Virus record (IMG/VR): IMGVR_UViG_3300021509_000002
Location: 1 to 40,532 of that record
DNA from: a virus
Length of the DNA: 40,532 nt
Strand: one strand, 5' to 3'
A model generated the notes under the pieces. It made no database searches and was not told where the DNA came from. It saw only the letters and a program-made list of their open reading frames with translations. This document shows positions 2,689 through 31,338 of this stretch, one piece after another. The translations under genes were made by a program, and so were the position numbers. How positions within the stretch are numbered: the stretch's first letter is position 1; the number at the start of each line of letters is the position of its first letter.

Positions 2689-4001
2689 CGATTGCTCCAT
2701 ATTTGATGTTGGTATGGTGGGAAGTTATAATGCAAAAGATAGCCGAGTGCATCTGTGATGTGCACTGTGCTCTTGCCCGCTTCTTCCTGTCTTTTATTCA
2801 ACCGCCCGTCTGCTTCCCGCTCTACTCGGCCAAGGTCGTACACCGTAGCCGGGCATGCCTTCTGATCGACGAAATATCGAATTGGGCCGGATATTGGCTT
2901 GCAACAGCTATTCACACAATTGATTCGATCCACCTGAAACGGATTGCTGTTGTGCGCTTTGATCCGGAATCCCATGCTAGAAAGAATGTGCAGGTCGGAA
3001 TGGCTGGCGTTGGTCGATTCATGCTTTCCGGTTGCGTCTGGGTAGATTGTAGCTGGGAGATACCCGCTCGCATCCCGGCGCAGGTCATATTTCTGGATCA
3101 GGTGTTCGCCCATTTCCCGGGTGTTGCTGTTTCTGAGCACGCTCTCGCCATGCTGGTAGAAAGCGCCGTTTATGATGTGTCCTTCCACCGCACACATGGG
3201 ATCGATATTGAAGTCCATCCCGACGTCAAGGCTCATGCCTTTTTGATACGTGCAGAATGCAAAATTGTCTTCACTGAATGCGTAGTAGGCCAGGCCGTCG
3301 TAGCCCTCGAAGCTGGCCTCATATTCCTGCCTGAATGTTTTCGGGTCGGTAGTCGATTTCGCAAGTGCGATCATCTTGGGCGACAGAACGTCGGCACTGA
3401 ACCAGCTGTGATAGCTCATGTCGCCATTCTCCACATAAGCCCCGACTCCGGCTTTCGTCTCCGGTATCACTCCGCCGCACGCAAGCTGGCACATCTCGAA
3501 CCAATGATTTTTTCCCTCCGGCACTCCGTTCAGGATAGCGAAGCCGTCATTATCCATCAAAATTGGCTGGATGTGATTCGCCCACATCTCCGGCCGTTGG
3601 TTTCCCATCTCGGTGATGAGCACGCCCTTTACCGGCGGGTAAGTCTGACCTTCTGCACGCTCCGGCCTGTCCAGCCCGATAACTTTCAGGTGACAGCCGT
3701 TCTTCAGGATGATGCGGCGGTCAGTCTCGCTCGGTCTTTTCGCCCAGAACAGTTTCGTGTCTTTCTTCAGCGTCTCCCAAAATATCGCTTTCGCCTGGTC
3801 GTGGGTTGGCGCACAGAAGAAATACATCTGGTCTTTCATATAGAAAGCGCCACGCCCGGGATCAACCAGCATCTTGCGGACGCCAATCAGGTCTTTCCGA
3901 CTCCGGCGCCCTGCCGGGATATGGATCAGGCGGTGCAGGTCTCTATAGTAGCGCAGGTTGGGCTCGGTCAGGTTGATGAGCTTGGTCGGCAGGTCTTTCA
4001 C
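2685..4001 (-). CDS. terL: Terminase large subunit
   Basis: A 438-residue packaging motor. A Walker A-like loop AGRRSRKD lies at residues 30-37, an adenine/coupling region APTHDQAK at 64-71, and a Walker B-like strand GVLIT followed by Glu131. The RuvC-fold nuclease domain starts near LDVGMDFN with Asp259 and Asp263. The protein translocates DNA into the prohead and cuts concatemers. The GTG start at 4001 overlaps the small terminase stop as GTGA behind GGGGGAAAA. Oddity: the last Walker A position is Asp instead of Thr/Ser. Identification is strong from motifs and neighbours. Confidence 0.92.
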   Translation of the reverse strand: MKDLPTKLINLTEPNLRYYRDLHRLIHIPAGRRSRKDLIGVRKMLVDPGRGAFYMKDQMYFFCAPTHDQAKAIFWETLKKDTKLFWAKRPSETDRRIILKNGCHLKVIGLDRPERAEGQTYPPVKGVLITEMGNQRPEMWANHIQPILMDNDGFAILNGVPEGKNHWFEMCQLACGGVIPETKAGVGAYVENGDMSYHSWFSADVLSPKMIALAKSTTDPKTFRQEYEASFEGYDGLAYYAFSEDNFAFCTYQKGMSLDVGMDFNIDPMCAVEGHIINGAFYQHGESVLRNSNTREMGEHLIQKYDLRRDASGYLPATIYPDATGKHESTNASHSDLHILSSMGFRIKAHNSNPFQVDRINCVNSCCKPISGPIRYFVDQKACPATVYDLGRVEREADGRLNKRQEEAGKSTVHITDALGYLLHYNFPPYQHQIWSNR

Positions 4002-9727: not shown

Positions 9728-9816
9728 GCTGAGACCTGGAAAGTATCCCAAAAAACCCAGTGGGTTATCTGGCTGCCAAAAATGCCACTGGCTCACCTGG
9801 GACTTGTTGGGACACT

Positions 9817-9907
9817 TGCTAGCAAAAGGGGGCAATTGCTGGCAAATGGGGACACTTGCTACCAAATGCTAGCAAAAGCCACCAAATGCTACCAAGTGCT
9901 AGCAAAA
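9817..9907. repeat. 10-bp-phased TGCTAGCAAA repeats
   Basis: TGCT begins at 9817, 9837, 9857, 9867, 9887 and 9897, with a degenerate unit at 9877; each is followed by a [AG][GC]CAA core. All starts are exact multiples of ten apart, one helical turn, as expected for cooperative protein binding on one DNA face. Confidence 0.8.
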
Positions 9908-9916
9908 GGAACGGTA

Positions 9917-9980
9917 GAAACCCCGGCACGCTTGCATTTCTACACCCGGAAACCCCGCCACGCCCTAGTTTCTACACCCA
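9917..9980. repeat. Two tandem 32-base repeats
   Basis: 9917-9948 and 9949-9980 match at 25 of 32 positions; both begin GAAACCCC and end TTTCTACACCC. The first also contains inverted arms GTAGAAA (9914-9920) and TTTCTAC (9937-9943). Confidence 0.8.
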
Positions 9981-9990
9981 GAAATAGCCG

Positions 9991-10083
9991 GTCAGTGGAT
10001 ATGGATGTTAGCATTAACCACTACTCAACTAGCATAAATGTAACATTAATACCTGCTCAGTGGGTATAATTGTTAGCATTAAC
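9991..10083. repeat. Pair of 28-base direct repeats, 65 bases apart
   Basis: 9991-10018 and 10056-10083 match at 23 of 28 positions, sharing TCAGTGG and the 12-base end TGTTAGCATTAA plus C. They lie between the 10-bp repeats and the promoter element. Confidence 0.75.
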
Positions 10084-10130
10084 AAACAGGACAAAAGGAT
10101 GTGCAAAAATAAGTAAAAAAAAGATGATTT

Positions 10131-10353: not shown

Positions 10354-11001
10354 ATGGCAAAGCAATCTTTCCTGATGTATTGTGACTACAGACAGCACTT
10401 TCTCCTATTATCGAAAGAGCAGCAGAGTGATTTATTGATGTTCATTTTCGATTATGTCGAGACTAGAGAGGCGCCAAACATTGACGATAAACTCGTTGCA
10501 ATGGCGTTTTCTTTTATTAAATCTAATCTTGATCGTGATTTTGATAAATACGATAAAATCTGTAATCGTAATAGAAATAATGGCTTACGGGGAGGCCGGC
10601 CAAAAAACCCAGTGGGTTATCCTGAAACCCAAGGAAACCCAGAGAAACCCAGAGAAACCCAGAGAAACCCAGAGAAACCCAAAAAAGCCGATACTGATAC
10701 TGATATTGAAAATGATACTGATAAGAAGAAAAAGAAAAAAGTATATAAAAAAAAGAAATTCACACCACCAACACTTGAAGAGGTCAAAAAATACTGCAAA
10801 TCCAGAAACAACAACGTTAATCCTAAGCGATTCTTTGACTTTTATGAAACTGCTGATTGGTTTGATAGCGAGGGCAAGAAAGTCGCTAACTGGAAACAGA
10901 AGGTTATTACATGGGAAGGCAATGATAATTCGAGAAAGCCCACCAGGTCTTCTACGAAGCCTTGGGTTGGCGAAGATTATGCTAGCAAGATACATATTTG
11001 A
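10354..11001 (+). CDS. Replication initiator-like protein (DUF6291/DnaD-like), 215 residues
   Basis: Residues 1-85 match the DUF6291 pattern known from phage replisome organisers (SFLMYCDYRQHFLLLSKEQQSDLL, MAFSFIKSNLDRDFDKYDKIC, GLRGGRPK). Residues 91-110 are a linker repeat built on ETQRNPEKPR, encoded by six 10-base GAAACCC units, followed by an acidic then Lys-rich stretch. The C-terminal domain (about 135-200) contains TPPTLEEVKKYC, NPKRFFDFYETADW and NWKQKVITW. With the DnaC-like loader downstream it should nucleate replication. Having repeats inside the linker-coding DNA resembles lambda O and its origin. Confidence 0.85.
   Translation: MAKQSFLMYCDYRQHFLLLSKEQQSDLLMFIFDYVETREAPNIDDKLVAMAFSFIKSNLDRDFDKYDKICNRNRNNGLRGGRPKNPVGYPETQGNPEKPRETQRNPEKPKKADTDTDIENDTDKKKKKKVYKKKKFTPPTLEEVKKYCKSRNNNVNPKRFFDFYETADWFDSEGKKVANWKQKVITWEGNDNSRKPTRSSTKPWVGEDYASKIHI
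10600..10760. other. Candidate origin inside the initiator gene
   Basis: A copy of the 22-base element from 9748 (10600-10621) is followed by six GAAACCC units starting at 10624, 10634, 10644, 10654, 10664 and 10674. These are followed by a purine- and A-rich stretch (10681-10760) that would melt easily. Phased iterons plus an AT-rich flank within the initiator gene is the classic lambdoid origin layout. Confidence 0.55.
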
Positions 11002-11011
11002 GGAGGGAGAG

Positions 11012-11428
11012 ATGAGAGAAATAAAATTCAGAGGTAAGGATGTAAAAACGGGAAAATGGGTTTATGGAGACTTACAGCATAATGAAATAGGCGATACCTG
11101 GATTTCAAGATTAACTTCTCAAACAAATGGAGAAGGTGGTTTATTTGTAAATGTAAGACCGGAAAGTATTGGTCAATACACTGGCCTCAAAGACACGAAC
11201 GGGAAAGAGATTTATGAAGGGGATATTAGAAAGGGGAAAATAAGGCGGGCTGATAAATTTTCTTCTTATGGTGATTGGATTTATGATGTGTATATCCTTG
11301 AAAAACTTTGTAGCTCGGAATATTACCAAAAAGATACAAAGGGAAAACTGTTTCTTAAAGAGTGGGATATTACTGTTGACATGGGGATTATCGGCAATAT
11401 CCACGATAATCCGGAACTGCTAAAATGA
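11012..11428 (+). CDS. YopX-family protein, 138 residues
   Basis: ATG 11012 follows GAGGAGGGAGAG. The opening REIKFRGKDVKTGKWVYGDL and the central VRPESIGQYTGLKDTNGKEI-YEGDI are hallmark motifs of the YopX domain family common in phages of Firmicutes and other bacteria. It is probably a small beta-barrel, biochemical role unknown. It lies ten bases after the initiator gene and ten bases before the next. Confidence 0.88.
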   Translation: MREIKFRGKDVKTGKWVYGDLQHNEIGDTWISRLTSQTNGEGGLFVNVRPESIGQYTGLKDTNGKEIYEGDIRKGKIRRADKFSSYGDWIYDVYILEKLCSSEYYQKDTKGKLFLKEWDITVDMGIIGNIHDNPELLK

Positions 11429-12547: not shown

Positions 12548-13234
12548 ATGAATTACCATGACAAGCTGATAAAAAACCTTGAGACCCGGATTGCTGAGGA
12601 GCTGGAACGGATTGAAAACCCCTCAGGCTCAAATCCAGCTACTCTGTGGGAAGATAACTACGTGAGAGATATGCAAGGACAGATTGAGAAATTGAACGCC
12701 GCAGAATTGATATTCCCGCCTTCTTACGTTATCGAAAATCCGAATATCATCGATGCGGTGAAAAAGGCGTTCAAAACACTGACGTTTAATTTCTGCTTTA
12801 CCGGCAGGGCTGGGGTCGGGAAAACGTATCTGATGCGAATTATCAAAGGCGGTGTCTATAACATTGGTCTTATTCGCAAATCTAACAGCATCAACTGTAT
12901 TGAGGATTACGATCAATACCTCAAGGCCAGAAAAGCAGACTCCACCTATCACCCTGACACAAAATGCCAGTTTCTTTTTATCGATGATGTCGGTGACGAG
13001 AAACCATCAACGGACGCCGCTCATTCCTGGATAGCCGGAATAATCCAAGAACGATACGAATATTGGAGCAAACACCCGGAATGCAGCACTATAATTACAA
13101 CAAACCTCCCCACAACCGATCTTATATCCATTTACGGGGAGCGGGTTGTTGACAGAATGCTGGATCAATACACATTTTGCAAATTCACAAACGAATCTTT
13201 CAGGCTGAGAAACCAGAAAGTAATCGAGGGGTAG
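12548..13234 (+). CDS. DnaC/IstB-like AAA+ ATPase, probable helicase loader
   Basis: ATG 12548 after AAAGGAGGGATAAG; 228 residues, a normal length for the family. Walker A GRAGVGKT is at residues 86-93, Walker B LFIDDVGDE near 143-151, and a sensor-1-like TIITTNLP strand near 186-193, with an Arg-rich C-terminal segment. The N-terminal 60 residues are a helical, probably helicase-binding part. With the initiator-like protein at 10354 it would load the host DnaB on phage DNA; no phage helicase is visible. Confidence 0.88.
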   Translation: MNYHDKLIKNLETRIAEELERIENPSGSNPATLWEDNYVRDMQGQIEKLNAAELIFPPSYVIENPNIIDAVKKAFKTLTFNFCFTGRAGVGKTYLMRIIKGGVYNIGLIRKSNSINCIEDYDQYLKARKADSTYHPDTKCQFLFIDDVGDEKPSTDAAHSWIAGIIQERYEYWSKHPECSTIITTNLPTTDLISIYGERVVDRMLDQYTFCKFTNESFRLRNQKVIEG

Positions 13235-23682: not shown

Positions 23683-24378
23683 ATGAAAAAGATAGATGGA
23701 TTCGCCACAAATTGTGGGGACAATGATCGTGTAATTACTTTAAGCAATAGTATTTATACAATTGGTTGCTTTAGGGGCACAAAAGAAGAAGCTGTCAAAG
23801 CTATAGAAGAAAAATATACAGGTGAAGATAAAATCGCTTATGTCAAAAAATTAAACGATTGTGAAGATATGGAATGGCTAACTGATGAAATACACGAACA
23901 ACTAAAAGATGATAAGGATTGGCAAGTTCGCTTAGCTGCCGCAAGATACAGCGATAAATACCATGAACAGTTCAAGGACGATGAATCTTGGCGTGTTCGT
24001 TTAGTTGTTGCCGAGTACAGCAATAAATACCACGAACAACTAAAAGATGATAAGGATGGATATGTTCGTGTTGCTGTCGCCGAGTACAGCAATAAATACC
24101 ACGAACAACTAAAAGATGATAAGGATGGATATGTTCGTGTTGCTGTCGCCGAGTACAGCGATAAATACCACGAACAACTAAAAGATGATAAGGATTGGCA
24201 AGTTCGCTTAGCTATCGCAAGATACAGCGACAAGTATCATGAACAGTTCAAGGACGATGATTCTTGGCGTGTTCGTTTAGTTGTTGCCGAGTACAGCAAT
24301 AAATATCATGAACAGTTGAAGGACGATGAATCCTGGTATGTTTGTATAACTGTTGCGGAATATAAAAAGCAGAAATAA
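23683..24378 (+). CDS. HEAT-like 23-residue repeat protein, 231 residues
   Basis: ATG 23683 after AAAGGAGAGAGAG. Residues 1-68 are unique; residues 69-228 are seven tandem 23-residue units of the form KYHEQLKDDxxxxVRxAVAxYSx, encoded by 69-base DNA repeats. Units 3 and 4 are identical in DNA apart from the last codons. Units 1 and 5, and 2 and 6, resemble each other most, suggesting four-unit block duplication. The two-helix units with VR-x-AVA resemble HEAT/LRV repeats that make a protein-binding solenoid. Partner unknown. Confidence 0.8.
   Translation: MKKIDGFATNCGDNDRVITLSNSIYTIGCFRGTKEEAVKAIEEKYTGEDKIAYVKKLNDCEDMEWLTDEIHEQLKDDKDWQVRLAAARYSDKYHEQFKDDESWRVRLVVAEYSNKYHEQLKDDKDGYVRVAVAEYSNKYHEQLKDDKDGYVRVAVAEYSDKYHEQLKDDKDWQVRLAIARYSDKYHEQFKDDDSWRVRLVVAEYSNKYHEQLKDDESWYVCITVAEYKKQK
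23890..24362 (+). repeat. 69-base tandem coding repeats
   Basis: Seven in-frame units with period 69; the unit starts 24028, 24097 and 24166 are exactly 69 apart, and the first two intervals are almost identical in sequence. Likely unstable by slippage or recombination. Confidence 0.85.
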
Positions 24379-30462: not shown

Positions 30463-31338
30463 TTAACTTATTGTTGCACCAAATCCACCAAGGATAAGCA
30501 AATATCGATTTGTTGATCCTGATGGAATAATATAAACACATGACCCCTGCCCAGATAAGGTAATTGTTGTCCCTGTACTCTGTGTTCCCGAATCTTTCAT
30601 AAAAGAAAACAAATCTAATGGGTCACAGGAAATTATTGCATTGTTTGTACCTGCCGTATTAACAAAAAGCATCGGCGCTCCAGCATTAAGTTGCGTTGTG
30701 ATCGGGAGAGATACATTTATCACATTACTTGCTGTATCAAGTGCGTAATACCCCGCACGGGTGGCAGTGTAATTTGTTGCTGTTACCTTAACATTATTTT
30801 GCTCTAACGCTTGATTAAGCCCTGATAACGGTTCAGTAACGCCCTTCAGTTCTTCAAACTCAGATTCAGATACACCGGTATCATTTAGCGATTCTGCATA
30901 GTTTAAATCTTCATAATCTCCAGTAAACCCGTCCAGCTTATTCAATTCGTCGGTGGTTGCAGTAATACCATCAAGGGTATTAAGTTCGGTGGTGGTTCCA
31001 GTAAACCCGTCAAGTTTATTTATCTCGACAGTGGTTGCGGTAATACCATCTAAGACATTAAGCTCGCTAACGGTTATAGTTGCACCATTCAAAATATTAA
31101 GCTCACCTGTTGATGCGGTAATGCCATCCAGGACATTTAGCTCACTAGTGCTTAATGTCGCTCCATCTAATATGGCAAGCTCTGCATCACTAAGGCCATT
31201 TCTTATCTGTGACTCGAAATCGTTGACTAAAATCCTTTTAGTGGCATCCGTGCCACCGGTTCCATCTACCGCTACATAATCAGCATCGTTTGCCGTTGTA
31301 ACAACTGTTGTGAGTTCACTTATTCTTTTATCTGCCAT
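30463..31338 (-). CDS. Tail fibre-like protein with repeated ELN-LDG units, 291 residues
   Basis: ATG 31338 after AGAGGAGGTCTATT. The N-terminus MADKRISELTTVVTTANDAD resembles virion-attachment regions of phage fibres. Residues about 50-150 contain seven or eight 13-15 residue units, each like ELNxLDGITATTx, a repeat found in trimeric fibre shafts. The C-terminal third is beta-rich and Thr/Ser/Gly-rich. Likely a fibre shaft with a small head. The host receptor is unknown. Confidence 0.82.
   Translation of the reverse strand: MADKRISELTTVVTTANDADYVAVDGTGGTDATKRILVNDFESQIRNGLSDAELAILDGATLSTSELNVLDGITASTGELNILNGATITVSELNVLDGITATTVEINKLDGFTGTTTELNTLDGITATTDELNKLDGFTGDYEDLNYAESLNDTGVSESEFEELKGVTEPLSGLNQALEQNNVKVTATNYTATRAGYYALDTASNVINVSLPITTQLNAGAPMLFVNTAGTNNAIISCDPLDLFSFMKDSGTQSTGTTITLSGQGSCVYIIPSGSTNRYLLILGGFGATIS

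Follow-up and report, generated by a model that had tools for sequence, protein, structure and literature searches.

Probable Origins Inside Phage Initiator Genes

In phage lambda the gene of a helicase loader is located near O. The lambda origin lies in the middle of gene O and is made up of iterons with an AT-rich region next to them (PMC7466680). In phage SPP1, oriL is found within gene 38; it has direct repeats and an AT-rich unwinding element and cooperates with a helicase of the DnaB type and a loader (PMC6316719). The Rac prophage is stated to possess an active origin, oriJ (PMC3945230). The E. coli Rac prophage encodes YdaU, a DUF1376 protein that adjoins the ATP-binding YdaV.

The window analysed here is a stretch of 40,532 nt of viral DNA (IMG/VR record IMGVR_UViG_3300021509_000002), in which a gene of the DUF6291 family carries repeats with the same in-gene layout as lambda, i.e., an N-domain followed by a linker with repeats and AT-rich DNA and then by a C-domain. 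In contrast to lambda, the initiator belongs to DUF6291 and not to O, its N-domain has no solved relative, and the repeats are short cores spaced by 10 bp together with an inverted pair, while lambdoid phages have four to six longer iterons; SPP1 gp38 differs in both protein family and repeat sequence, and YdaU in its domain (DUF1376) and its iteron class. The arrangement is known from lambda O and SPP1 oriL, while the families are undescribed in the literature searched: no mention of DUF6291 was found there (subscription papers were outside the scope, and a prior description is not excluded), nor any paper treating DUF1376 together with "origin of replication".

The DUF6291 Gene and Its Iteron Array

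The features of the locus are collected in Table 1. The gene product matches PF19808 (DUF6291) at residues 5–84 with an E value of 2e-26 (score 92.4 bits, curated cut-off 27.2), and its AlphaFold2 model comprises a helical N-domain (about residues 1–88), a disordered linker (91–130) and a C-terminal module (about 135–196). With the N-domain alone as query, IMG/VR yielded no relative; the relatives of the whole protein there mostly have only the C-terminal module in common and carry diverse N-domains; a contact of this module with the helicase loader or helicase is proposed by inference. The Pfam search for an AT_hook gave no match at E 0.01, though the GRP core is present in GGRPK.

Table 1. 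Features of the putative origin and its surroundings (positions in the window).
Feature	Position	Strand	Basis or remark
Second AACCCAGTGGGTT copy	9754..9766	.	Apparently non-coding DNA
TGCTAGCAAA-type array	9809..9909	+	Class found elsewhere in linkers of other initiators
GTAGAAAC/GTTTCTAC array	9914..9984	+	Read as relic of a Lin1244_N initiator linker, as in L004
DUF6291 replication initiator gene (putative), 215 aa	10354..11001	+	Pfam PF19808; replication neighbours in relatives
DUF6291 domain, residues 5–84, presumed DNA-binding	10366..10605	+	Pfam, AlphaFold2
NGLRGGRPK codons, peptide class paired with AACCC iterons	10579..10605	+	Motif–iteron comparison
Inverted pair AACCCAGTGGGTT	10606..10618	.	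In phase with the array, 20 bp ahead; element also in listed viral stretches
Direct iterons GAAACCC x6, 10-bp step	10624..10681	+	Sequence, TRF, Markov simulation
AT-rich, C-poor (GATACT)n and A-rich stretch	10684..10768	+	Proposed DNA unwinding element
C-terminal module, about residues 135–196	10756..10941	+	Conserved, fused to many different N-domains
DnaC-like helicase loader gene	12548..13234	+	Pfam IstB_IS21; PHROG DnaC-like helicase loader, E 2.5e-23

Six GAAACCC units start at 10624, 10634, 10644, 10654, 10664 and 10674, with a step of exactly 10 bp, and TRF assigns to the array a period of 10, 5.8 copies and a 95% match. The window contains 11 GAAACCC in all, six of them in exact register, against a first-order Markov expectation of 2.8 and a maximum of 7 in 200 simulations; chance does not explain the array. 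The repeats lie just past the DUF6291 domain, and exactly 20 bp ahead of them an extra, seventh AACCCA at 10606, overlooked in the original prediction, forms the inverted pair AACCCAGTGGGTT with TGGGTT at 10613. Directly behind the array are the A-richest stretches of 40, 60 and 80 nt of the whole window (maxima at 10719, 10699 and 10721, respectively), and in 31 of 31 relatives the AT content of this tail is above that of the gene.

The original prediction had reported the six units every ten bases, their position in the linker-coding part of the gene and the very A-rich DNA behind them, all of which are borne out by the exact coordinates and the TRF period, by the disorder of this part in the AlphaFold2 model and by the window maxima for A. 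It had also named the product a DUF6291/DnaD-like initiator; the first term is confirmed by the PF19808 match, while the second is not supported: Pfam gave no match for a DnaD domain, the PDB contained no relative either by sequence or by fold, and no solved DNA-binding fold is matched by the N-domain. The assignment to DnaD or to any other known fold was dropped for lack of such support.

A second forward frame is open at 10454–11428, extending from inside the initiator across the array into a YopX-type gene, and gain or loss of 10-bp units could fuse the two genes. Elsewhere in the window, a HEAT-repeat protein (23683–24378) contains a strong 69-bp tandem DNA repeat in about 7 copies, and tandem repeats of 39/78 bp are found inside a minus-strand gene (30805–31182).

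The Putative Origin and Its Gene Neighbourhood

The region 10606–10768 is a real origin-type element and is very likely the phage's origin; that it is the replication origin located inside the phage's own initiator gene is the best explanation of the whole, with a probability of roughly 0.83 and with no binding or replication data. The interpretation is strongly supported by comparison of sequences and not by experiment.

In the proposed mechanism, the DUF6291 N-domain, which ends in the basic peptide NGLRGGRPK, would bind the AACCCA units. With steps of 10 and 20 bp, both the inverted pair and the six direct copies would lie on one face of the helix, so that several protein molecules would line up. 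The lined-up protein would strain and open the downstream AT-rich (GATACT)n and A-rich DNA, and the conserved C-terminal module, held on a flexible, disordered linker that the origin itself encodes, would help to recruit the DnaC-like loader and the helicase. Binding by the DUF6291 protein, melting, loader recruitment and the status of active origin are inferred; what the sequences themselves show is the repeat pattern and its preservation as DNA, the helical spacing, the placement between the domains, the AT-rich flank, the replication genes adjoining in relatives and the association of motif and iteron.

The layout of a lambda O-type origin is present: the iterons (10606–10681) sit between model domains 1–88 and 135–196, the AT-rich region directly adjoins them, and the DnaC-like gene is found about 1.5 kb downstream of the initiator, with genes in between. 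The initiator shows no homology to lambda O, the protein matching only DUF6291 and PHROGs of unknown function. The lambda-like origin of the original prediction holds as a layout, here and in relatives, while a working origin and initiator binding remain inference only. An inflection of the GC skew at the array, which had been suggested as a check, is absent; the skew of the window is dominated by gene orientation, with which it shifts near 5 kb and 25 kb.

In relatives, the DUF6291 gene adjoins a primase/helicase in Flavobacterium phages, a COG1484 DNA replication protein in Cellulophaga phi19:3, a DnaC/DnaI loader or DnaB-like helicase in Vibrio phages and, elsewhere, a replication protein P; in RAP44 it is annotated as "primosomal protein". 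Such adjoining loaders, helicases and primases, the position of the array always deep in the gene and beside an AT-rich stretch, and the absence of a promoter-like excess make it improbable that the repeats are mere operator sites, bound by the DUF6291 protein for control of its own gene or operon, while replication starts elsewhere, even if autoregulation is frequent among phage initiators, other arrays are present upstream, and an operator cannot be distinguished from an origin by binding-site architecture alone. Scans for a promoter or terminator role gave results no better than chance, and this role was rejected.

DNA-Level Selection in DUF6291 Linkers

The linker repeats were compared across DUF6291 relatives (150 records, from which 63 non-redundant genes were used) with a null in which synonymous codons were redrawn 300 times from each gene's own codons, the protein being fixed. 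Out-of-frame direct 6-mer pairs number 679 in the linkers of the 63 genes, whereas the redraws give 111 ± 19; for inverted pairs the corresponding figures are 153 and 59 ± 10. The excess is sixfold and 2.6-fold, respectively, and 0 of 300 redraws reach the observed count in either case. Outside the linkers of these genes, direct repeats do not exceed the null level, either in the N-domain (36 vs. 31) or in the C-terminal part (57 vs. 55), and inverted repeats show a mild excess in the N-domain (81 vs. 56). The excess persists in a strict set of 33 genes with N-domains less than 60% identical (direct 443 vs. 73, inverted 105 vs. 37), whose repeat spacings peak at 9–10, 19–20, 29–30 and 39–40 bp, which is the period of the DNA helix and not that of codons. 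In the 31 genes of the AACCC class all three reading frames are used (26/50/47), and genes with other N-domains that share the C-terminal module of the window also have an excess in their linkers, both of direct repeats (73 vs. 26) and of inverted ones (41 vs. 16). Some DUF6291 genes, e.g., L116, L124, L127, L139 and L140, are without a clear array.

In the reverse test IMG/VR was scanned by DNA pattern alone (AACCCASTGGGTT-N5-9-AACCCA), which retrieved at least 119 viral stretches. Among the 119 listed, 89 are located in a DUF6291 gene, all in gene orientation and 0–63 nt past the domain; most of the coding ones among the other 30 listed are found at the equivalent place in DUF1376 proteins, and a few matches are non-coding. 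GGR[PKR] is encoded no more than 30 codons upstream in 102 of the 119 listed stretches.

Selection at the DNA level, considered plausible in the original prediction, is shown comparatively by the agreement of the redraw null, the within-gene controls, the helical spacing, the inverted copies, the use of three frames and the DNA-first search. The same evidence leaves very little room for the view that the repeats are merely a low-complexity linker (NPEKPRETQR) generated by DNA slippage without any role as DNA: the linker is indeed disordered in the AlphaFold2 model, all frames are open with a 10-nt unit, and in-frame linker repeats likewise exceed the redraws (567 vs. 266), but slippage does not produce inverted copies, has no preference for the observed spacings, and does not regenerate AACCCA...TGGGTT in every frame, in Bacteroidota and Vibrio phages and in two Pfam families. 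The spacing, the inverted copies and the synonymous null speak against a pure protein repeat or slippage.

Clusters of AACCCAGTGGGTT are also present in apparently non-coding viral DNA in L227 (reverse strand, about 3170–3230), L264, L267 and L294; these could be gene-separate origins, broken initiators or hairpin terminators.

Association between Peptide Motifs and Iterons

DUF6291 genes have several iteron cores besides AACCC, including TCGCA, TCAAC, TAGCAAA and more, and the peptide that follows the N-domain is associated with the core. In DUF6291, AACCC iterons accompany GGR[PKR] in 31 of 35 genes and are found in 0 of 28 without the motif (Fisher 6e-14); the strict set gives 11/14 vs. 0/19 for GGRP, and DUF1376 53/54 vs. 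0/21 for GGR[PKR] (1e-17). RW is paired with CGCA in 11/11 DUF6291 and 16/18 DUF1376 genes, and SAExR with TCAAC in 4/4 and 2/2, respectively. The motif classes were set by eye on the same data, and the core of the RW class was initially TGCGA, which failed in DUF1376 (2/16) and was only then widened to CGCA; further tests were run for these reasons.

One of these concerns E. coli Rac YdaU, in which a KAGKASVQARR motif is followed, as predicted, by sites of the TTCAAAC/TTTGAAC type. Its linker contains five TCAA[AC]/[GT]TTGA sites against 1.6 expected (P 0.003), and inverted pairs number 10 where 1.4 are expected (P 0.001), the latter being the cleaner number because the widened core was chosen after the sequence had been read. 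A fresh DUF1376 scan provided 17 new non-redundant genes, for which TCAAC had been widened to TCAA[AC] and SAExR loosened beforehand, after YdaU; here SAExR gave 7/7 vs. 0/10 (5e-5) and RW 7/10 vs. 0/7 (0.006), the exceptions being three RW genes with AACCC-containing units instead. Outside the two families the rule is broken by L019, which has the RW motif and AACCC repeats. The evidence for a link between GGLAK and TAGCAAA is weak, because the GGLAK codons are themselves the iteron. The DUF1376 genes L429 and L434 carry the RW motif together with 11-bp AACCCAATGCC units and do not fit the rule.

The N-domain trees are poorly resolved, and related genes are not independent in these counts; parsimony in DUF6291 counts 18 changes of motif and 20 of iteron, with only two independent pairs on well-supported branches, too few for an informative sign test. 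DUF6291 and DUF1376 should not be described as unrelated: a comparison of their profiles, which takes in the common NG..GGRPK tail, gives an 85% probability, and they may be distant relatives. The counts suggest that, in both families, the iteron can be predicted from the peptide that follows the N-domain. It is possible, though held at somewhat less than even odds, that the peptide is a portable specificity element that dictates the iteron and travels with iterons and AT-rich DNA as a cassette of about 150 bp exchangeable between initiator families; that the peptide itself reads DNA is neither excluded nor shown.

The Upstream Region

The GTAGAAAC/GTTTCTAC array upstream of the gene resembles the linker of L004, whose protein is a Lin1244_N member, over 36 nt (100%) and 67 nt (82%), and the homology between the window and L004 picks up again at 10727, where the proposed origin has its downstream flank. 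The simplest reading of this alignment is that an N-domain and origin cassette may have replaced an older one, the old repeats being left behind. The extra AACCCAGTGGGTT at 9754 parallels oriR, the second site of SPP1, although a second functional origin is unproven; together with the other upstream arrays it could be another origin, wholly or in part, and the arrays at 9754–9984, which stand side by side in apparently non-coding DNA, may be a leftover, a second origin or a decoy for the initiators of other phages. That the active origin is instead the non-coding region 9754–10130, with the in-gene array secondary as in SPP1 oriR/oriL, is the least probable explanation, its AACCCAGTGGGTT and further iteron-type arrays being offset by the presence of a single AACCCA pair and no direct AACCCA array, by the match of one array to the linker of another initiator, and by the absence of a comparable upstream array combination from all other DUF6291 loci tested.

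Ahead of an HTH gene, two 36-nt copies (81%) with ends TGTTAGCATTAAC are located 65 bp apart at 9983–10083 and are possibly operator sites.

Meaning of the Proposed In-Gene Origin

The reading of 10606–10768 as an origin inside its initiator gene would provide a function and a mechanism for two large families of "unknown function", DUF6291 and DUF1376, and would account for the odd protein-repeat look of their linkers. The origins of many uncultured phages would become readable from sequence alone and, if the motif–iteron rule holds, it would represent a simple, testable DNA-recognition code, for which ydaU of the E. coli K-12 Rac prophage is a laboratory model.
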